The translations under genes were made by a program, and so were the position numbers. From positions 1 through 64,000 of the forward strand of contig JAIXWR010000034.1 of the NCBI GenBank assembly GCA_027491155.1: DNA of 64,000 bases. The letters are read 5' to 3'. Position 1 is the stretch's first letter. The number at the start of each line of letters is the position of its first letter. Positions 1,532-64,000 of the stretch are shown in pieces. The notes under the pieces were generated by a model. It was given only the letters and a program-made list of their open reading frames with translations, was not told the DNA's origin and did no database searches. This DNA is from Verrucomicrobiaceae bacterium (GTDB lineage: Bacteria; Verrucomicrobiota; Verrucomicrobiia; Verrucomicrobiales; Akkermansiaceae).

Positions 1532-4500
1532 CGCGGAGCTTCCGCACCAGAATCACTCCCGCGAGCAGTGCCAGGATCCCGCCGAAAAACCACCCCTTCG
1601 GAAACTCCGGCTCGATCTCCAGTTCCAGGCGCATCGGCTTGCCGCCGTCGACCTGCACGCTGCGCTTGAAATCCAGCACGGTGCCGCGCTCGGCCAGCGT
1701 CACGTCGAGCGCCGCCGGGGCGGGGTCCGCGGCGAGCTGCTGGCTGACGATCCGGTTGGCGATCGCTTTCATCGCCGCGGTCTCGTCGACGCTGTTGCCT
1801 TCCAACAGCCGGTCGAACTGCTGCGGGTCGAAGTTCAGGTTCCCCTGCAGCAGCGGGTTCTCCTGCGCCGCCTGCTCGAGCTGGGCGTTGCCGGTCGTCA
1901 CGTCGGCCTTGTTGTCGAGATACATCCGCTGCCGACGCGTGTTGAGCGCCAGTGTCGCCTGCTGGGTCTTGAGGTTTCGCAGTTGCACCCGCGCGTCCTC
2001 GTTCGATGCCTCGTCGAGCAAACCGTTGCGCGCCGCCTTGCTCAGCGCCTGGCCCGCCTTGTCCTGCTGGCCGGCCACCATCCACGCGTTCGCCTGGTCG
2101 AGCAATGCCACCGCCTCCTGCTTGCCCGCCGCCCGCTTGCTGGTAACGAAGCTGCTGTAATCCTGGAACGCCTTGCCGGCCGCCTTCTTCTGCAAGTCGA
2201 AGTCGCCGTGATGGTCCGCCAGCCGCCAGCCTTCCGGCAGGATCACCCGCCAGCCCAGGTTTTCCAGCGGCACGTCGAGCATCGGCCCGTCGAGCACCGT
2301 CCCCTTGCCCGCCGGCATCGCATAAACGAAGCGCACGCTCGCCGGCCGGTCGCCTTCGGGTGCCGGATAGACGTAGAACAACCAGTCGTTGCCCTCGCGC
2401 ACCAGCGCCACGCCGTCCTCGTTGACCAGCACGTTGTAAAGCGAGGCCTCCTTCGGCAGCGTCAGCCGCAGCGTCCCCTTCTCGGTCACCCGCACCTTGA
2501 GATCGACCGCCGTCAAAGCCGCGCCGTCCGGCGAGACCAGCGTGGTCAGCGATCCCTGCTCGACCCGCAGCCGCTGCGAATCCGCCAGATTGTGCCGCTT
2601 CAAGGTCACCGCCAGCGGCCCCCCCGCCTCGGCCACACGGAACACCCCGGCCGGAGCCTGGGCGGAGAAGGCGGCACGCAGGGTTTCGGGCACCACGCCC
2701 CAGTCGCTCTTCTGCCAACCCGGCGGCATCTCGGTCGCGCTGATCTCAAGACGGCCCGCCGTCCGCAGCGACACGAAATACGAGGCCTGCCGTACTTCCG
2801 ACGGCACCAAGGGATTCACCTTTACTTGTTCGTTCGCGGCCTGCTGGAACTCGATGTCCACCGTCGTCTCGCCCGCCACCCCGCGCTGGAAGCGAATCTC
2901 CCACAGCCCGGTCTCGCCCGCCACCGGTACGAAATCCGCCACCGCCGGGCCGCTCGCCCGCAAGGTCGCCGCCGCGCTTTCATCGAGCCCCGGAATGCTC
3001 ACCCGCAGCGTCTTCATCGCGGCGTTCTCGATCCGGTAGGCGAGCCGCACCCGGCTCAGCGTCTGGCCTTCGCGCAGAGTCACCTCGTGCAGCACCTGGG
3101 CGGTCACCCAAGGATCTAGCTTGGCGATCGCCAGCGCCAGCGACCAGTCGGCTTGCAGCAGCTTGAAAGCGAGCGCCCCCGGCCGCGGCACTCCGGCCTC
3201 GCGGGGATCGAGCTGCGAGACATTGCCGCGCGACACCGCCCGCACCTGTAAGCCGCGCTCCGGCACCACCGTCAGCGTGCCGGTTTGCCGCGCCGCTCCA
3301 CGCAGCACCACCCGCGGGGCCGCCCACGATGCCTGCGCGCCGGGAGCCGGCGCGGTCAGCGTGACGGCGAAGGCCTGCTCGCCGAGCGTGCGGCCGTTGA
3401 GATGAAGGTTCAGCAAACGGGTCTCTCCATCCGCCGACTCCGCCCAATGCGCGAGCGCAGGACCGGTCACCGATTCGATCTCGAAGCCCTTGGGAATCTC
3501 CAGCTCCAGCTTGAACAGGCCCGCCCGGGTGATCGAGGCCGCGAGATCCACCGCCAGCACCATCCGGTCCTCGCCGAGCGACAGCGTCTGCTTCGTCTCC
3601 GCCCGGATCTCCGCCGCCACCGGTGCGACTTTCAAGGTCAGCGAAGCCTCCGCGCCGCCGTGGCGGAACGCACGGTGCAGCACCGCCAGCGCCCGGCCCT
3701 CGCGGTCCACGGGGAGCAGCTTGCCACCGAAGTCATCGAGGTTCACCGCGCTCATCCCCTTCGCCACCACCGCTTCCGCCTGCGCCTCGTCGCCGAAGCC
3801 CAGACCTAACAACCCGACCGATCCCGCCGCGCCCTTGACCACCAGCGGTTGTAATTCCAGGTCCACCGGGAGCGTCGCCGTGCCGCGCTGGGTTCCGATC
3901 ATGAAGGCGAAGGGCTGGTCCTGCGCGGGCTCGATCCCCACCTTCAGCTCCCGCGTTTCCGGATTGAAGCGCCAGCTGCCGACCGGCCCGTCCGCCACCT
4001 CGCCGACCGTAAAGCCTTCCGGGACCGTGATCACCAGCTCACGCACCAGGCCGCGCGACGGCCGGATCGACACGAGATGCCGCCCGCCGACCACGCCGGG
4101 GCCGGGCAGATAGAGATCGGACGTCTCGACAAAGAACTGCGTCGCCTCGCTCGCCACGTCGCGCCGCAGCGGACGGGCCATCATCAGGATTTCGTCCGCC
4201 GGCCCGAGCACCAACTCGGCACCGCTGCCGCCGTCGACCTTCAACGCGGTCACCTTCGCCGCGCGCTGCGAAACAAACTCCCAGCCCTCCTGATTCCAGG
4301 TCACATTGACCCGCTGCGCCGCCGCCGGTCCGGACGGCAGTTTCCAACCGTTCTGCGGAGCCGCCAGCGGCATCTCGAAGGTCGCTTTGCCGCTCTTGAA
4401 TCCTTCCACCGTCGCCACCAGGAAATACGCTTCTTCTTCGCCATGCGGCGCCTTCAGCACCCGCAGGCCTTCGCCGGTGAATCCTGTGAGAACGGCGGGC

Positions 4501-62161: not shown

Positions 62162-63580
62162 ATGCGACGACTCCACGGCTTGTTCATTGCTCTGCTGGCC
62201 GCGCTGACCGCACCGGCGGCGGTCGCGACCCATCCGCATGTCATCGTCATCCTCGTCGACGACATGGGCTACGGCGACCCCGGCTGCTACAATCCGGAGT
62301 CGAAGATCCCGACGCCCCACATCGACCGCCTCGCCGCCCAAGGCATGCGCTTCACCGACGCCCATGCTCCCGGCCCGTTTTGCCACGCCTCGCGCTATGG
62401 ACTGATGACCGGCCGCTATCCGTTCCGGACCGACCTCTCGAAATGGCCGACCCGGCCGCTGATCGACGAGGACCAGGTCACCCTGCCGTCCCTGTTAGAG
62501 AAAGCCGGCTACGCCACCGCGATGGTCGGCAAGTGGCATCTCGGCTTCGCGGAAAACGGCTACGGGAATCCCCTCCCCGGCGGCCCCGTCGACCGGGGCT
62601 TCGGCAGCTTTTTCGGGATCCGCGCCTCCACCGATATCCCGCCGTATTTCTACATCCGTGGCGACCGTGCCGTCACTCCGCCGAGCGTTCCCATCGCCGC
62701 CGACCGCAGCGACGGCTGGTCGCCCATCCAGGGAGCCTTCCGGCGCGAAGGCACGATCGCCCCCGACCTCAACCTGAGCGACGTGCTGCCGCGCTTCACC
62801 AACGAAGCGATCTCAGTGATCCGTTCGCGCGACGCGGCCAAGCCGCTGATGCTCTATCTGGCCTATCCCGCGCCCCACACGCCCTGGCTGCCCGCGCCGG
62901 AGTTCCGCGGCAAGAGCGGCGCCGGCATGTATGGCGACTTTCTGATGATGGTCGACGATCAGATCGGCAAGGTGCTCGCCGCGCTGGAGTCCGCGAAGAT
63001 GCTGGATGACTCGCTGCTCGTCTTGACCTCCGACAACGGGCCCGTCTGGTATCCCGAAGACGTCCAGCGCCTCGGCCACGACTCGGCCGGAGGCCTGCGC
63101 GGGATGAAAGCCGACGCCTGGGAGGCCGGCCACCGCATGCCCTTCATCGTGCGTTGGCCTGCCGTCGCCAAGGCAGGCACGGTGAGCGATCACACGCTGA
63201 GCTTCACCGATCTGCTGGCGACCTGCTCGGAAGTCGTGAAGCAGGAACTCCCTGCCGGAGCCGGTCCCGACAGCTTCAGTTTCCTGCCCGTGCTCAAGGG
63301 GGGAACGATTCAACGGCCGCCCATCGTCATGGAATCCAGCAACGGCCTCAGAAGCATCCGCTCGGGACCGTGGAAGTGGATCGAGGGCCTCGGCTCCGGC
63401 GGATTCTCCAAGCCATCGAAGATCAAGGCGGGTCCGGGCGATCCCGCCGGCCAGCTTTATCATCTCGGCAACGACCGGGCGGAAACCACCAACCTCTTCT
63501 CCCGGCACCCCGGAATCGTCGCCCGCCTCCGTGCCGAAATGCGGAAAATCGTCGACTCGGGCAGCAGCAAGGGCCCGTGA
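62162..63580 (+). CDS. Type I sulfatase (secreted)
   Basis: A 472-residue arylsulfatase-family enzyme. It has a signal peptide (LFIALLAALTAPAAVA), the metal-binding start IVILVDDMGYGDPG, and the formylglycine motif region PGPFCHASRYGLMTGRYPF; here the core is C-x-A-x-R (CHASR) rather than the usual C-x-P-x-R. GKWHLG, PHTPWLP and TSDNGP also match. It would hydrolyse sulfate esters, probably polysaccharide, in the periplasm. Maturation needs a formylglycine-generating enzyme, which is not in the window. The ATG at 62162 gives a clean signal peptide. Confidence 0.92.
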   Translation: MRRLHGLFIALLAALTAPAAVATHPHVIVILVDDMGYGDPGCYNPESKIPTPHIDRLAAQGMRFTDAHAPGPFCHASRYGLMTGRYPFRTDLSKWPTRPLIDEDQVTLPSLLEKAGYATAMVGKWHLGFAENGYGNPLPGGPVDRGFGSFFGIRASTDIPPYFYIRGDRAVTPPSVPIAADRSDGWSPIQGAFRREGTIAPDLNLSDVLPRFTNEAISVIRSRDAAKPLMLYLAYPAPHTPWLPAPEFRGKSGAGMYGDFLMMVDDQIGKVLAALESAKMLDDSLLVLTSDNGPVWYPEDVQRLGHDSAGGLRGMKADAWEAGHRMPFIVRWPAVAKAGTVSDHTLSFTDLLATCSEVVKQELPAGAGPDSFSFLPVLKGGTIQRPPIVMESSNGLRSIRSGPWKWIEGLGSGGFSKPSKIKAGPGDPAGQLYHLGNDRAETTNLFSRHPGIVARLRAEMRKIVDSGSSKGP

Positions 63581-63600
63581 TCACCCGAAAGGAGAGAGGG

Positions 63601-64000
63601 TCGGGGCGGCCAGATTGCCGATGGCCATGCCGGTTTGCACTTCGTGATCCGATGATGGTCGTGACCACTCCCGCCGCGTTCGAACTGAGGGCCTGCGGCA
63701 AGGCTCTCATCTGGCCGCCCCTCGCTTGGGGTCAGGCGCAGTCCGCCGTGTGGCGATGCGGGAAGGGTCGGGACCACTCGAAAGGTGAGATGGTCGGGGC
63801 GGCCAGATTGCCGGTGGCCATGCCAGTTTGCGCTTCGCGATCGGTTGAAGGTCGTGACCACTCCCGCTGCGTTCGAACTGAGGGCCTGCGGCAAGGTTCT
63901 CATCTGGCCGCCCCTCGCTTGGGGTCGGGCGGGATCCGGGATCCGCTTCGTCGCAACACGGGAAAATTCGGACCACTCGAAAGGTGAGATGGTCGGGGCG
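63601..64000. repeat. Tandem about 195-bp repeat array, running off the window
   Basis: Two full units and the start of a third: TCGGGGCGG occurs at 63601, 63793 and 63993, so periods are 192 and 200 bp. Each unit has perfect 13-bp inverted arms (GGGGCGGCCAGAT at 63603 and 63795; ATCTGGCCGCCCC at 63709 and 63902) and a central GGTCGTGACC palindrome. No convincing gene lies in 63581-64000. Confidence 0.85.

Follow-up and report, generated by a model that had tools for sequence, protein, structure and literature searches.

The window, the whole stretch of 64,000 nt analyzed here, ends in repeats of about 195 bp, and the question that they raise is what kind of element they are. The repeats are real: two complete units lie directly 3' of a tRNA-Pro(UGG) gene, with the minus strand as the sense strand. 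Two 170-nt copies in the window are 89% identical, and a 31-nt segment occurs three times at start-to-start spacings of 193 and 199. An earlier note on this DNA had described the repeats of about 195 bp, and its spacings, 192 and 200, need slight correction. The third 31-nt copy (63970-64000) consists of tRNA trailer and the tRNA's own 3' end. ARAGORN found no tRNA in the window alone because the window edge cuts the gene; on contig C39 beyond position 64000 it placed tRNA-Pro(tgg) on the minus strand at 63990-64066 (locus L031, 1991-2067 minus; 66.1 bits with the Rfam tRNA model). The portion inside the window, 63990-64000, is the 3' end of the gene, with CCA encoded. Extension of the sequence, which the earlier note had proposed, led into this tRNA gene and no more units, and not into the continuing array that the note had claimed. 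The tRNA link defines the element and could not be seen from the window. A convergent ORF, which by eye resembles a sulfatase gene, stops at 63580, below the units.

Unit 1 (63791-63918, minus) is separated from its host by a 71-nt trailer (63919-63989, minus) that, by eye, lacks a strong intrinsic terminator, unlike the trailers at several other loci. In tRNA orientation, unit 1 begins with the 5' arm GGGGCGGCCAGAT (63902-63914; 13/13 paired), complementary to the 3' strand of the host T-stem and acceptor. The arm leads into the constant box GATGAGAACC (63895-63904), with which it shares GAT, and then come a loop, the box GTTCGAA (T-arm box GTTCGAAC, 63871-63878), and an insert with a GGTCACGACC hairpin. 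The palindrome GGTCGTGACC of this insert (63850-63859) is replaced by a different sequence at other loci. The unit ends in AATCTGGCCGCCCCGACCA (63791-63809), identical at 19/19 positions to tRNA positions 58 to 76, including CCA. Unit 2 (63598-63725, minus) repeats this plan, with a 5' arm at 63709-63721 (13/13 paired), the constant box as GATGAGAGCC at 63702-63711, GTTCGAAC at 63678-63685, GGTCGTGACC at 63657-63666, and a copy of the tRNA 3' end at 63598-63616 that matches at 18/19 positions and ends in CCC, not CCA. The spacer between the units (63726-63790, minus) is a copy of the tRNA trailer at 73% identity (shuffles, 41%). The perfect 13-nt inverted arms of the earlier note (63603-63615/63709-63721 and 63796-63808/63902-63914, each pair 93 nt apart) and its central palindrome are both present.

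A covariance model, R1, was built from seven units of the same genome and scored unit 1 at 129.1 bits and unit 2 at 120.1 bits, both being among its training sequences; the next best score in the window was 17.0. The fold of unit 1 lay 4.6 sd below those of dinucleotide shuffles, with 0/200 as good. In each of the two window units, the order is a 13-nt arm complementary to the T-stem and acceptor strand of the host tRNA, the boxes, a hairpin-rich insert, and an 18-19/19 copy of the tRNA 3' end. Where the T-stem has GGG, which is the commonest form, reverse-complementing the tRNA from acceptor through T-arm gives the 5' segment nnnGGGATGAGAACCC, except that the T-loop triplet is altered to GAG. 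The GGTTCGAA box copies the T-arm directly and is split from its 3' half by the insert. At locus L038 (genome G027), where two units lie behind tRNA-Ser(cga), GATTCGAACC, the exact T-arm reverse complement, replaces GATGAGAACC.

Copies of the unit were found elsewhere in the same genome and in other phyla, so that the outcome named in the earlier note as refuting its reading, a simple local duplication, is not what was seen. With a 200-nt query, other contigs of the genome yielded weaker matches, in neighborhoods with other tRNAs, the same frame, and other arms. R1 found 13 elements at eight loci in this genome, seven of the 13 being those that trained it. Pro(TGG), Ser(CGA), Ser(TGA), and Leu(AAG) each carry two elements, and Asp and Pro(GGG) one each. 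At these six loci, which have an intact tRNA, the first unit lies 60-71 nt 3' of the tRNA on the same strand; two further loci, C7 with two elements and C9 with one, are orphans lacking an intact tRNA.

The distribution of the units is patchy. Across 38 genomes (the own genome and relatives), R1 had matches in 10, all among the 18 genomes of the genus, and none in the 20 searched outside it. R1 missed three pattern matches in G014, a genome of this genus. A strict pattern was present in 11 of 387 genomes of the phylum, a count that includes four outside the family (G048, G149, G229, and G280) that are pattern matches only. The same unit is carried by locus L085 of Luteolibacter marinus and by genome G012. 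We compared by eye the orthologous tRNA-Ser(CGA) locus in 16 genomes. Clear units follow the tRNA in G000, G003, G007, G010, and G012; the unit of G014 is divergent, and G016 has a remnant. In G009 and G015 the tRNA and a terminator are present without a unit, G001 and G004 have apparent islands, and the five remaining genomes have other sequence. Truncated units also exist. The degenerate unit of G016 at this tRNA (locus L210) has a 3' end like tRNA-Ser(GCT), unlike its neighbor, and may be a misplaced copy.

A single scan of genome contigs with the pattern GGGATGAGAACCC-N5-35-GGGTTYGAA returned 64 stretches, in records that include Verrucomicrobiota, Bacteroidota, Chlorobi, Gastranaerophilales/Melainabacteria, Alphaproteobacteria including Rickettsiales, Lysobacterales, and Oceanospirillales, among others. 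For 42 of these stretches, a same-strand tRNA or tmRNA gene ends within 120 nt, and for two at 121-450 nt. The rest comprise 11 that begin too near a contig or locus edge, three with a partial T-arm, and six with nothing; the six include both Rickettsiales loci and L083, which looks like chance. The hosts at the 44 linked loci are Ser (22), Pro (9), tmRNA (8), Cys (2), Met (2), and Arg (1). The tRNA- or tmRNA-linked frame occurs also in Bacteroidota, Chlorobi, one Gastranaerophilales MAG, and Proteobacteria, as well as at E. coli tyrT/tyrV, and the insert sequence differs from phylum to phylum. The tmRNA hosts belong to seven Sphingobacterium records and one Sphingobacteriales MAG (ssrA loci L072, L078, L089, L105, L113, L118, L132, and L134, with up to four tandem units at L118). 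In the genus of G414 (Sphingobacterium), 9 of 60 genomes had the strict pattern, counted as pattern matches. Daejeonella sp. H1SJ63 (L129) has a unit whose 3' end is of the tmRNA type but which is separated from the tmRNA, upstream on the same strand, by about 5.9 kb, as though an insertion had come between them.

The arms differ between hosts, stay paired, and follow the host tRNA across loci. For the comparison with hosts, 79 candidate units near tRNA genes were reduced to 61 (18 dropped) by allowing at most 3/14 mismatches between 3' copy and host and an insert below 160 nt, and by excluding one spurious core form. The 45 first units among them were used (Ser 26, Pro 11, Cys 2, Tyr 2, and Leu, Met, Thr, and Arg 1 each). 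For tRNA positions 59-72, the high identity between 3' copy and host is partly a product of this selection, while the 5' arm was unfiltered by host; outside the filter, the identity was 1.00, 0.98, 0.96, and 0.87 at positions 73-76 and 0.71-0.82 over the next nine bases. At positions 63-72, arms paired with their own host in 323 of 450 cells, against a mean of 240.9 and a maximum of 270 with hosts permuted (0/5000 as high). With repeated arms removed, 41 units remained, and 286 of 410 cells were paired versus 215.3 permuted (maximum, 244). Pairing with the own host and with other isotypes was 0.91 and 0.28 at position 64, 0.82 and 0.23 at 67, and 0.76 and 0.40 at 68. Pairing declines along the acceptor stem, from 0.98 at position 60 to 0.49 (other isotypes, 0.32) at 72 and 0.31 (0.29) at 73. 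Position 71 had no own-host excess (0.42 own versus 0.46 other), and past position 72 pairing was not above chance (42/180 versus 39.2 at 73-76; 126/360 versus 122.4 at 77-84). Arms in Bacteroidota are only about 8-9 bp long.

The arms also covary, as the earlier note had suggested checking. Among the seven own-genome units, eight of the 13 outer pairs are changed on both sides, and none is broken. In 27 genus elements, 95.5% of 513 cells are paired (slid controls, 33-55%). Two-sided changes affect 9 of 19 pairs and 65 cells (6.4 and 17.4 in shuffles), and the covariation score is 0.408 versus 0.149 shuffled; further pair types, 24 against 22.9, are not above shuffles. This set consists of 38 matches minus 11, namely two antisense, L056, whose 3' half is degenerate, and eight that are truncated, partial, or weak. 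It was aligned by MAFFT and not by the model, but a model that rewards paired arms had been used to find the elements, and the same sequences served to derive the structure. Within the own genome, the C7 and Ser(CGA) cores are 88% identical, four of 14 positions differ in each arm, and the arms are paired at 14/14 in both; the arms of C7 are of the tRNA-Ser(GCT) type.

We compared the units with known systems and filed those of the window as a divergent variant of tRNA-linked repeats (TLRs). By the account of the E. coli report (PMC8144298; editorial, PMC9245011), TLRs date from 1978, and its available text describes the class as without known function, lying behind a tRNA or rRNA gene, with 18-19 bp of identity to its 3' end and one to five units per locus. 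The two window units share these features: the tRNA-Pro(tgg) gene lies 71 nt upstream of unit 1 on the same strand, the 3'-end identity is 19/19 and 18/19, and the locus has two complete units. The E. coli tyrV units (L149) have the same frame, with the arm GCGGGGAAGGAT, a GATGAGAAGC box, a GGTTCGA box, and AATCC plus acceptor plus CCA. Unlike E. coli TLRs, the window units belong to another phylum and have a different insert, in the own genome the hosts are Pro, Ser, Asp, and Leu, whereas in Sphingobacterium the host is tmRNA, and the genus arms reach acceptor length at many loci, with 13-14/14 paired (from the C7/Ser(CGA) arm comparison).

The Rfam model RtT (RF00391) aligned over its full length (model 1-130) at four loci with 20.2-28.8 bits, 20.2 being the score in the window. 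Units and RtT share the boxes and the outer-stem frame (GGAUGAGAACC, GGUUCGA, and AAUCC...CCA), and the best of the own-genome loci, at 28.8 bits, falls short of the RtT gathering score of 45. In whole-genome searches the own genome had no RtT match at E 0.001, and two of 38 relatives matched, the best at 36.9 bits. At gathering, RtT matched four units in E. coli, where the tyrT/tyrV units scored 132.9-137.5 bits, and none at 13 other loci tested. A literature search, weak given that most subscription journals lay outside it, returned TLR and RtT reports from Enterobacteriales and Pasteurellaceae and none on other phyla; rrB homologues in particular are, in the accessible part of PMC8144298, reported only from Enterobacteriales. 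A second Rfam model, sX4 (RF02223), gave 37.9 and 32.6 bits over tRNA-Ser, spacer, and unit start at L034 and L035, which is below its gathering score of 70, and a large share of these bits probably comes from the tRNA. Seven sX4 were found in Oleidesulfovibrio during tRNA sequence analysis, according to an excerpt of PMC11124144. In our view, sX4 may be a tRNA-Ser-linked unit of this kind in Proteobacteria. At the same two loci, RF04351 (Plastid-psbl-rps4) matches tRNA-Ser antisense below threshold (L034 4441-4493; L035 4003-4052), and this model may hold tRNA-Ser antisense sequence.

REP/BIME elements with RAYT transposases are likewise short, hairpin-bearing, non-coding repeats. Unlike these, the units follow a tRNA or tmRNA gene in the same orientation at 44 of 64 loci, and six of the eight own-genome loci adjoin an intact tRNA. 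Y1 transposases (Y1_Tnp) are present in 18/18 genus genomes whether or not units are present and are therefore uninformative on REP-type mobility. The earlier note was right that the array is neither CRISPR nor a gene: whole 195-bp units repeat, and the spacer is a tRNA trailer copy, which rules out a CRISPR array. Integron attC core sites read RYYYAAC and GTTRRRY. By inspection, GTTCGAA/GTTTGAA has a pyrimidine where R is required, and attC was rejected.

Whether the unit structure acts as RNA or as single-stranded DNA is a point on which the evidence is split. In favor of RNA, besides the free NCCA and the E. coli and Actinobacillus RNAs taken up below, are features of the sense strand. G-U replacements in the arm occupy 14 of 155 possible sites versus 14 of 325 for A-C, a weak excess; the closing pair of helix 2 is G-C or G-U in 27/27 genus elements, and the 3-bp hairpin before AATCC has CG, AU, GC, or UA as its middle pair, which is sense-strand covariation. 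In favor of single-stranded DNA, hairpins of at least 4 bp with a GNA triloop numbered 28 versus 1.8 ± 1.3 in shuffles, and their opposite-strand form 1 versus 0.9. This count overstates independence, since the loop is present in only 19 of 45 loci, many related by descent. All triloops were also raised (73 versus 21.4 shuffled), and GNRA tetraloops in units numbered 0 versus 1.1. The 7-mer GCGNAGC occurred 46 times versus 5.7, and its reverse complement GCTNCGC 13 times versus 2.6, so the 7-mer preference is not wholly one-stranded. Control trailers had 4 GNRA loops versus 0.6 and 1 GNA loop versus 0.5; control flanks had 34 GNA versus 27.6 ± 3.9 and 21 GNRA versus 16.5 ± 4.0. GCGAAGC hairpins are described as exceptionally stable as DNA in the available part of PMC4686876. 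For 44 cores, the mean folding z was -0.87 for RNA sense, -1.03 for RNA antisense, -1.28 for DNA sense, and -1.22 for DNA antisense. Folding energy in these cores did not differ between strands (p 0.48 and 0.39), and DNA sense was lower than RNA sense (p 0.005), which is not decisive because the parameter sets differ. At several loci the stretch from tRNA to unit contains what by eye is a strong intrinsic terminator, so little RNA may be made there.

Several observations bear on how units multiply and move. In 22 of the 28 loci listed, the first unit is followed by a further copy of the trailer at 60% identity or more (shuffles, 26-56%). Elsewhere in the own genome, related cores sit behind other tRNA genes and carry other arms; the cores of Leu and Pro(GGG) are 85% identical. 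The core tree is mixed: orthologous tRNA loci cluster in close genomes, cores also cross isotypes, and only 6 of 25 inner branches are well supported. Mean core identity was 0.66 for the same tRNA in another genome, 0.65 for another tRNA in the same genome, and 0.60 for neither. At the orphan C9, the unit and a partial tRNA-Ser lie next to an ORF with a Phage_integrase match (71.7 bits), a tyrosine recombinase. By eye, L032, L042, L052, and L058, four orphans from three genomes and with two arm types, share one mobile-element end directly upstream of the units, including a degenerate tRNA-Ser-like 3' end. At L228 (G433:C1:799000-818000), units at 3104, 13385, 13528, and 15107 form one array with members up to 10 kb apart, which may be a landing site. 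Between them lie IetS/IetA-type genes, CBASS-type genes (cyclase and TIR-STING effector), and then an ISL3 transposase. By eye, the right border of this stretch of about 10 kb shows the 3'-end variant of the units rather than the one in the tRNA-like remnant at 3027, and in this single case the island therefore probably joined at a unit copy.

The reading that we prefer, tentatively and at a little under an even chance, is that the TLRs in the tRNA-Pro(UGG) trailer are a passenger repeat whose 5' arm locks the duplicated 3' end and which spreads by recombination and is refitted. A second tRNA 3' strand in one transcript could compete with the real one for the 5' acceptor strand of the tRNA, and the 5' arm would make the duplicate harmless by sequestering it in a local acceptor/T-like stem. 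Read-through RNA might be trimmed at or near the tRNA-like 3' end, by analogy with E. coli TLR RNAs. Units would multiply through recombination between 3'-end copies, and a core would occasionally reach another tRNA or tmRNA gene, where both arms would be refitted to the new host. We infer the passenger nature of the unit from the 13 elements at eight own-genome loci, the host-matched first-unit arms, the two-sided arm changes, the C7/Ser(CGA) core with differing arms, the copied trailers, and the cores shared between tRNA genes. Precedents, as far as the available texts go, are E. coli rrB, whose RNA arises by read-through past T1 and is processed (PMC8144298), and a 175-bp VNTR listed at the rtT RNA of Salmonella (PMC2658671). 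Against a passenger repeat stand the terminators, the fall-off of arm pairing, the short Bacteroidota arms, and the annotated start of E. coli RttR, which lies 7 nt after tyrV and not at the arm. The preference of the insert hairpins for GNA triloops, a class of loop known from very stable hairpins of DNA, is left unexplained, and no mobilizing enzyme has been identified. The conservation of RtT in Pasteurellaceae, where RtT is annotated by gathering-type criteria and one RtT-family RNA is present in all or nearly all genomes according to the portion of PMC4986893 at hand, fits a function better. A selected small RNA cut from the pre-tRNA transcript, like RttR or RrA/RrB/RrF, with its structure kept for function, is a possibility we regard as somewhat unlikely. 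It would account for that conservation and for the Northern signals of Actinobacillus RtT-family RNAs by tRNA genes (same source), for the sense-strand covariation, the G-U excess, and the helix 2 closing pair noted above, and for the lack of pairing excess past position 72, which would leave NCCA free as in a tRNA. In the accessible part of PMC8144298, transcription and processing are demonstrated in E. coli for RrA/RrB/RrF, and RrB binds Hfq and CsrA in vitro; for RtT, an excerpt of PMC7657543 describes a tandem GA motif that covaries. Such a function is hard to square with the patchy distribution, the tRNA-Ser(CGA) genes of G009 and G015 that end in a terminator without a unit, the variation of the insert between phyla, and the truncated units; in addition, the claim of a role in the stringent response for one tyrT TLR was retracted, according to the same part of PMC8144298.

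Another explanation is that the units are arrays of attachment sites, which integrative elements recombining at tRNA 3' ends would either have left behind as scars or use as spare sites. The segment from T-loop to CCA is a usual integrase site, and it is what the 3' copy of the units spans. The recombinase at C9, the shared mobile-element end, the apparent islands of G001 and G004, and the stretch in G433 all fit, yet attachment sites would predict neither an inverted, host-matched 5' arm nor the constant GATGAGAACC box nor a structured insert; with an intact host gene within 120 nt at 42 of 64 loci and one case of insertion inside an array, we consider this explanation quite improbable. Simple local duplication of the tRNA 3' end, with no further meaning, agrees with the tandem copies and copied trailers but is contradicted by related units at eight loci of the own genome and in several phyla, with compensatory, host-matched arms, and is hardly tenable. 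The units might instead be a distinct kind of non-autonomous mobile DNA that acts as a folded single strand and rebuilds its terminal hairpin from the target, which would fit every insertion to the gene it follows; this seems to us rather unlikely. In this reading the core carries GNA-triloop hairpins on the sense strand, both of its ends resemble the tRNA T-arm, and at a new tRNA or tmRNA gene both arms would be copied from that gene, for example by fold-back template switching. The host-matched arms pose the question of how a repeat acquires an inverted copy of whichever tRNA precedes it, and arm pairing offers a direct handle for genetic testing. A single frame that recurs across phyla, behind many tRNAs and tmRNA, and whose arms follow the host gene makes a comparative system of what had been a gammaproteobacterial curiosity, and some units adjoin genomic islands, one of them with defense genes.

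Viral sequences were also searched, and 13 stretches matched a loose pattern. By eye, only L144 has tandem units and a tRNA-like 3' end, the other viral stretches looking like chance, and viral carriage was rejected. At L144, a viral contig (IMGVR_UViG_3300036824_000115), two tandem units adjoin a partial tRNA 3' end, perhaps at a provirus border.
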